Source: an uncultured Prochlorococcus sp. (GTDB lineage: Bacteria; Cyanobacteriota; Cyanobacteriia; PCC-6307; Cyanobiaceae). Taken from it: a stretch of DNA of 48,547 nucleotides. The notes beneath the pieces are model-generated. The model worked only from the letters and a program-made list of their open reading frames with translations, was not told where the DNA came from and ran no database searches. Both the position numbers and the translations under genes were made by a program. The stretch lies in NCBI GenBank assembly GCA_902606505.1, contig CACLGU010000005.1, forward strand, positions 1-48,547, read 5' to 3'. Shown in pieces: positions 33,219-37,394 of the stretch (position 1 is the stretch's first letter; each line of letters starts with the position of its first letter).

Positions 33219-33281
33219 AAAATTAAGATAATTATATAGTTCATAATTTTCTCTTTATTCTGTGCATACTTATAAAAAGGC

Positions 33282-33366
33282 GGAGAGGTGGCTGAGTGGT
33301 CGAAAGCGAACGACTCGAAATCGTTTAATAGGGAACTATTCGTGGGTTCGAATCCCACCCTCTCCG
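33282..33366 (+). tRNA. tRNA-Ser (anticodon CGA)
   Basis: GGAGAGG...AACGACTCGAAATCGTT (loop CTCGAAA), long variable arm, GTGGGTTCGAATCCCAC, CCTCTCC-G. Confidence 0.97.
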
Positions 33367-33585
33367 TAAAATATTTTTTAGCCGAAAATTTTAACTTAGG
33401 CATTAGTTATAGACTTGAAGATTTTCCAGAAACTTGGTCTTAACTTTTCAATTTCTTATTTTGTGTTGTGGGAATTGTGGGATTATTGACTATGAGTTGG
33501 TTTACTCTTCCCTATCTTTCCCATATCAGCACATAGGGTCTGAACTCAACTTCTAGAACCTCCAGATTATTTTTAGTTTCTAATA

Positions 33586-35566: not shown

Positions 35567-37261
35567 ATGAAGTTGATGTTTTATATATTTTTATTTAGTC
35601 AATTATTAAATTTTCTTGGAGTGTTTGCAGAAAAACTAAAAGAAGGTTCGTCTATAAAAAATCCTGTTAATTGGGAAAAGGTGGAGGAAAATAAATCTAA
35701 ACCGTTGAAAAATATTATTTGGAAATCTTATAAAGGGGATGCAAATTATTTTAAAAAGGAAAACAAAGAAGGTTTCTCAAAAAATGAATTTTCGGAGACA
35801 AAATCTGCCGTGATGGATCCTTCAATTTGGCGAAATCGAACGTTGCGTTTTTCCTTTGAGGAAATTGATATGCCAGATGCCGGCGAATTCATGGGTTTAT
35901 ATAGTATAGGGGCTTACGATCAACTCAACTCTTGGCTTTACGGCGGTATAACTCTTTACGGTGCAGCGACCGGACGTCGTGGGGGGTTCTTTACTGGTGG
36001 TTACACCTTAGGAGTGGAACATAAGTTTACCGATAACTGGATTCTCGACTTAGGAGGCTACGTGGGCGCTGGGGGCGGCGGTGAAGCGGCGCAAGGAGGA
36101 GGATTAATGCTAAGGCCACATATCGGTCTCAAGTACGATCTTAAATGGAGCTCGCTGGGGCTCAATTATTCTTATGTAGACTTCCCAAATGGAGATATTT
36201 CAAGCGATGCAATAGCTCTTTCACTGGATATTCCTTTTACTTCACCGATATTAAATTGGGAAAATGATGGATTGACTCAGGTTGATTACTTCGGAGCTGG
36301 CTTGAGCAATGTGACTCGCCATCGATCGCACTTAGCCGCTCGCGTTCGTGCCTATTATCCGTCCAGCGACAGCAAAACAACATCCCGTGGTTCGTTTGCT
36401 GATTCATTTGGGCTGGTCGGTGTAGATTATTCTTATTTTCTTGATGAAAACTGGTTCGCCACATTTGAGACAGCCGGTGCTTTTTCAGGTGGCATTGGCG
36501 GGTATGCCGAACTCTTGGGTGGGATAGGCTATCGCTTACCACTAACCAGAGAAGGTCGTCTAGCTCTGCTCCCTGCCCTAACCATTGGCGGTGCCGGTGG
36601 CGGAGCGGTCGATACCGGCGGAGGATTTGTTGCCCGAGCAAATCTAGGGTTGGAATACAGACTCTCTCCTAATCTAAATATAATTATGGACGGCGGCTAT
36701 CTTACAGCCCCAGATGGTAATTTTGATACTTCATATGTCGGCTTCAATTTGGCATATGTAATGAAAACTTTTGCTCAGGATCAAAAAGGGGCACCCTTAA
36801 CGGAAACAAACTTTATCCAAACTAATAAATGGCGTTTTCGCCCGGCGCACCAATGGTATTTTGATGCGCAACGTAAGAACAGCTCTTCTCGCGATATGCA
36901 ACTTTTGGGAGGTAAGATTGACTGGTTTGTAGGCGATTGGTGGTATCTTACCGGACAAGGATTAAGTGCTTATGCAGGAGGAGCGGGCGGATATTCAGAG
37001 GGACACTGGGGATTAGGCATTCTTGGCCCAAGCTGGAATAATTGGCAAATCTATGGCGAAATGCTTATAGGTGCTGGAGGGGGAGGAGGCGTCGATAGTG
37101 GTAGCGCCTTACTATATAAACCAAGTATCGGGTTAGAGTACAAACTAAATGACGACTTCAGCCTTCAAACTGGTATAGGAAAAGTGATTTCTAAAGAAGG
37201 GAATCTTGATGCCAATACCTTGGATGTAAGTCTGGTTTGGCGTTTTGGGACCCCAAAATAA
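35567..37261 (+). CDS. Outer-membrane-type beta-barrel-like protein with three internal repeats, compositionally atypical
   Basis: ATG at 35567 preceded by AGGAAG SD (ORF track starts at upstream GTG 35546); signal peptide MKLMFYIFLFSQLLNFLGVFAE; alternating Gly/aromatic beta-strand pattern, C-terminal VSLVWRF. Confidence 0.75.
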   Translation: MKLMFYIFLFSQLLNFLGVFAEKLKEGSSIKNPVNWEKVEENKSKPLKNIIWKSYKGDANYFKKENKEGFSKNEFSETKSAVMDPSIWRNRTLRFSFEEIDMPDAGEFMGLYSIGAYDQLNSWLYGGITLYGAATGRRGGFFTGGYTLGVEHKFTDNWILDLGGYVGAGGGGEAAQGGGLMLRPHIGLKYDLKWSSLGLNYSYVDFPNGDISSDAIALSLDIPFTSPILNWENDGLTQVDYFGAGLSNVTRHRSHLAARVRAYYPSSDSKTTSRGSFADSFGLVGVDYSYFLDENWFATFETAGAFSGGIGGYAELLGGIGYRLPLTREGRLALLPALTIGGAGGGAVDTGGGFVARANLGLEYRLSPNLNIIMDGGYLTAPDGNFDTSYVGFNLAYVMKTFAQDQKGAPLTETNFIQTNKWRFRPAHQWYFDAQRKNSSSRDMQLLGGKIDWFVGDWWYLTGQGLSAYAGGAGGYSEGHWGLGILGPSWNNWQIYGEMLIGAGGGGGVDSGSALLYKPSIGLEYKLNDDFSLQTGIGKVISKEGNLDANTLDVSLVWRFGTPK

Positions 37262-37394
37262 AGCTCTCAACCTTTGAGTTGGTCTGGAAATAAAGTTGGA
37301 ATGTTAGTGTAAAGGTAATTATGAAAAACTTCTTCAAGAAAAAAATTTGGAATTGGAATCAAATTAAATTTTTCAAATGAAGGAAATAATAAGT

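Follow-up and report, generated by a model that had tools for sequence, protein, structure and literature searches.

A predicted three-barrel outer-membrane protein behind the leader of an unrelated resident protein at the futA–cobQ locus of Prochlorococcus

Between futA and cobQ in a Prochlorococcus genome we found a gene whose product probably comprises three tandem 8-stranded barrels behind a leader with tryptophan (Trp) motifs, and which probably arose when a foreign body replaced the body of a resident protein, here called T2, at this locus. The window is the whole stretch of 48,547 nucleotides that we analysed (contig CACLGU010000005.1), and the gene is its forward-strand frame 35567–37261, encoding 564 amino acids (aa). 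The source genome amounts to 1.25 Mb in 69 contigs and is ~76% complete; the nearest named relative with the gene is Prochlorococcus AG-347-K16, with 95% identity over the protein, and Prochlorococcus MIT 9302 has the gene as well. Read directly from the sequences are the repeats, the sharing of the leader, a break in composition, the alternation of occupants at one locus, their mutual exclusion, transfer between genera and a scar of T2 in one relative. An initial annotation of the window had pointed to the repeats; the derivation of the N-terminal segment from another resident protein and the compositionally foreign, mobile body go beyond it.

The three segments that the initial annotation quoted as internal repeats lie in the translation of this frame, and the repeats are real. 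The local alignment score (BLOSUM62) exceeded the best of 1000 shuffles for every pair: 81 against 67 for barrels 1 and 2 (B1 and B2; z 6.6), 112 against 70 for B1 and B3 (z 10.3), and 159 against 66 for B2 and B3 (z 21.3). Profile–profile comparison gave E-values of 2e-5, 4e-7 and 9e-11, respectively, so that all pairs are significant and repeats 2 and 3 are the closest. The actual units are longer than the quoted segments. All on the forward strand, a leader (35567–35827; residues 1–21 signal-peptide-like, then ~66 residues with two Trp motifs) is followed by B1 (residues 88–224, 35828–36238), which opens with the W-x-x-R start of the body and has eight predicted strands in a low-confidence full-length model. 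B2 (residues 254–399, 36326–36763) has eight strands according to AlphaFold2 modelling of residues 250–400 and Foldseek, and B3 (residues 421–560, 36827–37246) is the sole barrel retained in natural one-barrel versions. The linkers between B1 and B2 (36239–36325) and between B2 and B3 (36764–36826) are less conserved, at 0.76 and 0.80. The number and order of the three repeats are kept in nearly all relatives.

The whole protein has no sequence match in Pfam (tried to E 10), NCBIfam, PHROGs or the PDB, in agreement with the earlier view that it belongs to no named family. The same searches recovered no recognisable porin, autotransporter or TonB-dependent receptor family; a confident full-length match to a porin or autotransporter, which the initial annotation had named as evidence against its reading, was not obtained. 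Pfam likewise returned no YjbH/GfcD family at E up to 10. The closest approach is to the OMP_b-brl family (PF13505), which B3 matches at 22.5 bits (E 1.5e-4) and B2 at 14 bits, both under the curated cut-off of 28.7, with no match for B1. Similarity to PF13505 is seen in 16 of 39 repeats of homologues, the best at E 7.5e-5. Using the 39-row alignment in which the repeats of 13 homologues were stacked, AlphaFold2 predicted repeat 2 alone as an eight-stranded structure (pLDDT 85, pTM 0.78), and Foldseek matched this model to de novo barrels and to Ail, OmpA, NspA, OmpX and the OprF barrel at a query TM of about 0.55–0.72. As a prediction, the single repeat thus has the 8-stranded OmpA/OmpX-like fold, which gives substance to the earlier description of the protein as beta-barrel-like. 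The description as secreted holds as far as the signal-peptide-like N-terminus goes; together with the barrel prediction, this start leads to a predicted outer-membrane location. Foldseek against viral proteins returned merely generic small barrels at about 6–16% identity. A reading as a PagL-like lipid A deacylase was dropped, there being no Pfam match.

Among the arrangements that the initial annotation had considered, three small barrels are now favoured over one large barrel. We favour, as a prediction, the reading in which each repeat forms one complete 8-stranded outer-membrane barrel, giving three separate barrels in tandem, because a closed 8-strand unit is predicted for the single repeat and because genes with only the leader and B3 occur naturally, as intact 231-aa frames in different surroundings in two genomes (G004 and G764). 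Each of the three repeats is long enough for a barrel. AlphaFold, which the initial annotation had proposed together with Foldseek as a check, gave a full-length model whose strands fall into three sets of seven or eight; its low confidence (pLDDT 52, pTM 0.43) makes it too weak for the arrangement, so the case for separate barrels is built on the model of one repeat and on the natural short forms. A single large barrel of about 24 strands, of porin or TonB-receptor size, in which the three-fold repeat reflects internal duplication, is unlikely: the full-length model does contain about 24 strands and the Foldseek E-values favour big barrels, but those matches have a TM of about 0.2 and an rmsd of 14–22, and we judged them meaningless. 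The closed unit, the one-barrel genes and the spacing of the units by linkers of 20–30 less conserved residues also speak against it.

Outer-membrane proteins with several barrels are already known, for example YjbH/GfcD (Solan et al. 2021 PNAS, cited in PMC8592465). The present protein resembles them in having more than one predicted barrel per polypeptide; however, GfcD is described as having a globular domain flanked by two large barrels, of 12 and 13 strands, and here there are three 8-stranded ones. In our reading, three 8-stranded barrels behind a captured leader would be a new form among multi-barrel proteins of the kind cited in PMC8592465. With the OmpA, OmpX, Ail and NspA barrels (PF13505) it shares the predicted fold of the single repeat and weak profile similarity, but it differs from that type in its three tandem copies, short Gly-rich loops and long Trp-motif leader, and it carries no OmpA-like peptidoglycan domain.

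Judged by sequence comparison, the N-terminal ~87 residues belong to the resident and otherwise unrelated outer-membrane protein T2, and the gene is a chimera. From residue 1 to about 75, the leader is 48–70% identical to the starts of proteins with unrelated bodies, and it shares about 50–70% identity with the leaders of T2 genes at the same locus. Two Trp motifs, NWEKV (W36) and IIWKSY (W52), stand in the window leader; nearly all T2 leaders examined have two to five, mostly of the form [IVL]xW[EKQ], the ones without a listed motif (L138 and L156) being frames that start at a contig end. Across the genus the futA-(rhomboid)-cobQ-psbCD locus is alternatively occupied by T2 of ~600–620 aa or by a 322-aa form consisting of the leader and the last part, or last barrel, only. 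From its length and this shortened form, T2 itself probably comprises two barrels. It belongs to no Pfam or NCBIfam family. Of the 59 genera sampled in the cyanobacterial family, 20 gave matches to it; the window's own genome gives a leader match only. The two proteins thus have in common the locus, the leader and the occurrence of a form with a single last barrel. Their bodies, in contrast, show no homology (hhalign probability 0.7%, E 0.086), the leader alone being in common, and T2 is widespread and natively AT-rich in the genus.

The 477-aa three-barrel body has a foreign-looking composition, suggestive of a GC-richer origin. In the window gene the GC content is 0.472 in the body and 0.276 in the leader, and the same break recurs in 18 relatives (body GC 0.46–0.50 with GC3 0.35–0.45; leader GC 0.24–0.31), against 0.27–0.31 for T2 bodies in the genus. 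GC at fourfold sites is 0.41 in the body, compared with 0.14 in psbC/psbD and 0.19 in other genes, and arginine in the body is encoded by CGN instead of AGA. In a second genus (genomes G286 and G323) the body reaches a GC of 0.52–0.54 on contigs of 0.38. No donor genome was found among 340 class-wide and 300 family genomes, and no relative of the protein in phage, plasmid or viral collections.

The two body types exclude each other. Among 220 genomes of the genus, 35 carry all or part of the three-barrel body and 54 the T2 body or its last-barrel form, most others having neither; none carries both, where 8.6 would be expected (hypergeometric 2e-5, with classes assigned by reading match tables). 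Restricting the comparison to genomes at least 90% complete leaves 18 with the three-barrel body and 19 with T2, again without overlap (expected 4.6, p 0.002); both tests treat the genomes as independent although they are related and in part incomplete, so that the p-values may be too small or too large.

Traces of the displaced gene appear downstream of the body. In one relative (L040), about 150 bases soon after the three-barrel stop match the T2 3' end (nhmmer E 2.4e-10) and contain stops and frameshifts. In the window, 37327–37375 on the forward strand may be what is left, in decayed form, of the displaced T2 gene's 3' end. The match is much weaker (nhmmer E 0.065 when the window and about 50 loci were searched); none of 300 dinucleotide shuffles reaches its alignment score, and several other copies of the cobQ locus fail to exceed theirs. 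In the genome G781, the T2 gene at the cobQ locus is broken, and the three-barrel gene lies on another contig.

The body moves as a unit. It measures 475–478 aa in 27 copies (477 in all but two) with a constant W-x-x-R start, behind leaders of variable length. Besides the cobQ locus, its sites include the vicinity of apt and porin genes, a position downstream of lexA, and others. In the body tree the cobQ location was gained or lost at least two times; on the simplest reading there were two arrivals at this locus, one of them that of L040, whose body clusters with an apt-locus copy (support 99/98). Transfer also crossed genera, since between the window and G323 the body is far closer (83% identity, dS 0.48) than cobQ (57% identity, dS saturated). 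The copies in the other genus (L103 7536–9284 and L104 6472–8160, in genomes G286 and G323) have different signal-peptide leaders without Trp motifs; one of these leaders, MKRLLLAPLLLGLIPSVNA, is in the style of other small secreted proteins in these loci. The dN/dS of the body is 0.10–0.20, indicating purifying selection.

Other accounts of the gene's origin fare poorly against these observations. It is very unlikely that the body owes its high GC to translational selection acting on a native gene with high expression. Gly/Ala-rich proteins do push up GC at the first and second codon positions, but the excess extends to fourfold sites when compared with psbC/psbD, likely highly expressed neighbours, and the body uses GGG, GCG, CCG and CGN codons that psbC/psbD avoid; the leader to which the body is joined is AT-rich, and in the second genus the body has an even higher GC. 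Divergence of T2 and the three-barrel protein in place, as alleles of one gene without any replacement of the body, would account for the same locus, the common leader and the prediction of both as outer-membrane barrels. It is nevertheless highly improbable and largely refuted by the lack of profile similarity between the bodies; the composition break at the leader–body boundary, the T2 remnant in L040 and the presence of the body at several loci and behind a different leader in another genus weigh against it too. An artefact of assembly or binning might be suspected because several of the genomes were assembled from single cells or metagenomes, and its probability is negligible: the independent recurrence of the identical junction in dozens of assemblies, including the complete or near-complete G042, G060, G215, G234 and G381, refutes it, and the body is under purifying selection.

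Under the preferred reading, the 477-aa three-barrel body would have replaced most of the two-barrel body of resident T2 at futA–cobQ, in frame with the resident leader, and remnants of the old T2 3' end would have stayed behind. The protein would be exported by Sec and inserted by BAM as one 8-stranded barrel per repeat, placing the leader, termini and linkers in the periplasm, an orientation that draws on established knowledge of outer-membrane barrels as well as on our own deduction. The sharing of the leader by T2 and three-barrel proteins suggests a common periplasmic partner; the leader may serve both body types as a docking or biogenesis handle, and the three-barrel body probably takes over the role of T2 in the envelope. 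Shortened forms of both types keep the last barrel, as they should if the BAM signal resides in the C-terminal strand. We regard as tentative, with somewhat less than even confidence, a broader modular scheme in which the Trp leader is a general docking or biogenesis handle behind which unrelated single-, double- and triple-barrel bodies, including foreign ones, are exchanged in frame, with one type per cell.

The swap could instead be surface variation driven by escape from phages or grazers, with one barrel able to stand in for another as receptor or decoy. This explanation would fit the alternation of occupants at one locus, the horizontal mobility of the body and the variable stretch beside a tRNA gene, and surface genes of flexible genome regions are widely tied to phage recognition (PMC3782348). 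We consider it rather unlikely: conservation in the extracellular loops of the proposed orientation (0.905) equals that of the strands (0.907), compared with 0.848 in periplasmic turns, 0.76–0.80 in linkers and 0.63 in the mature leader, and dN/dS is low. Short Gly-rich loops as conserved as the strands suggest a fixed ligand or constant partner, or a structural role, and not such escape.

The proteins that marine picocyanobacteria export are for the most part uncharacterised, and many are restricted to particular lineages (PMC4949707). The locus illustrates concretely one way in which such diversity comes about, in which an outer-membrane protein body is wholly replaced behind a conserved leader, across genera; some members of Prochlorococcus, an abundant ocean microbe, probably swap entire surface-protein bodies while the leader stays constant. 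The locus further contributes a predicted architecture of three 8-stranded barrels and naturally occurring one-barrel derivatives; with these, whether a barrel folds independently and what the last barrel does can be tested directly.

Several minor observations concern the loci. A tRNA-Ser (cga) gene at 33281–33367 on the forward strand, where the variable stretch separating futA from the chimera begins, is a possible integration point. The ftsH-OTC-lexA region is a second alternating locus, with three-barrel genes in L158, L159, L043 and L045 and T2 genes in L166, L167, L169, L172 and L173. Its three-barrel genes have a leader with as many as three WEK repeats of its own; an identity of this leader with the T2 leader of G012 at the same locus was rejected, as the sequences differ and share only the style of Trp motifs. 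Near apt-locus copies lie tandem porin paralogues (L101 12963–15461, L163 7442–11761) with about 26–33% identity to the window porin. In the window's own genome (G000), contig C29 contains a C-terminal fragment of B3 (L056 2089–2229) with about 80% identity and three stop codons, which we read as the remnant of a second copy. A rearranged, broken copy is seen in G774 (L163 4043–5635), where the cobQ-type leader (leader A) and a B3 fragment lie on opposite strands. Upstream of cobQ, genomes with neither barrel protein (L061–L069) often have a predicted membrane protein of ~180 aa (MNKKDLNFKSVIFKIFFTYLG...).
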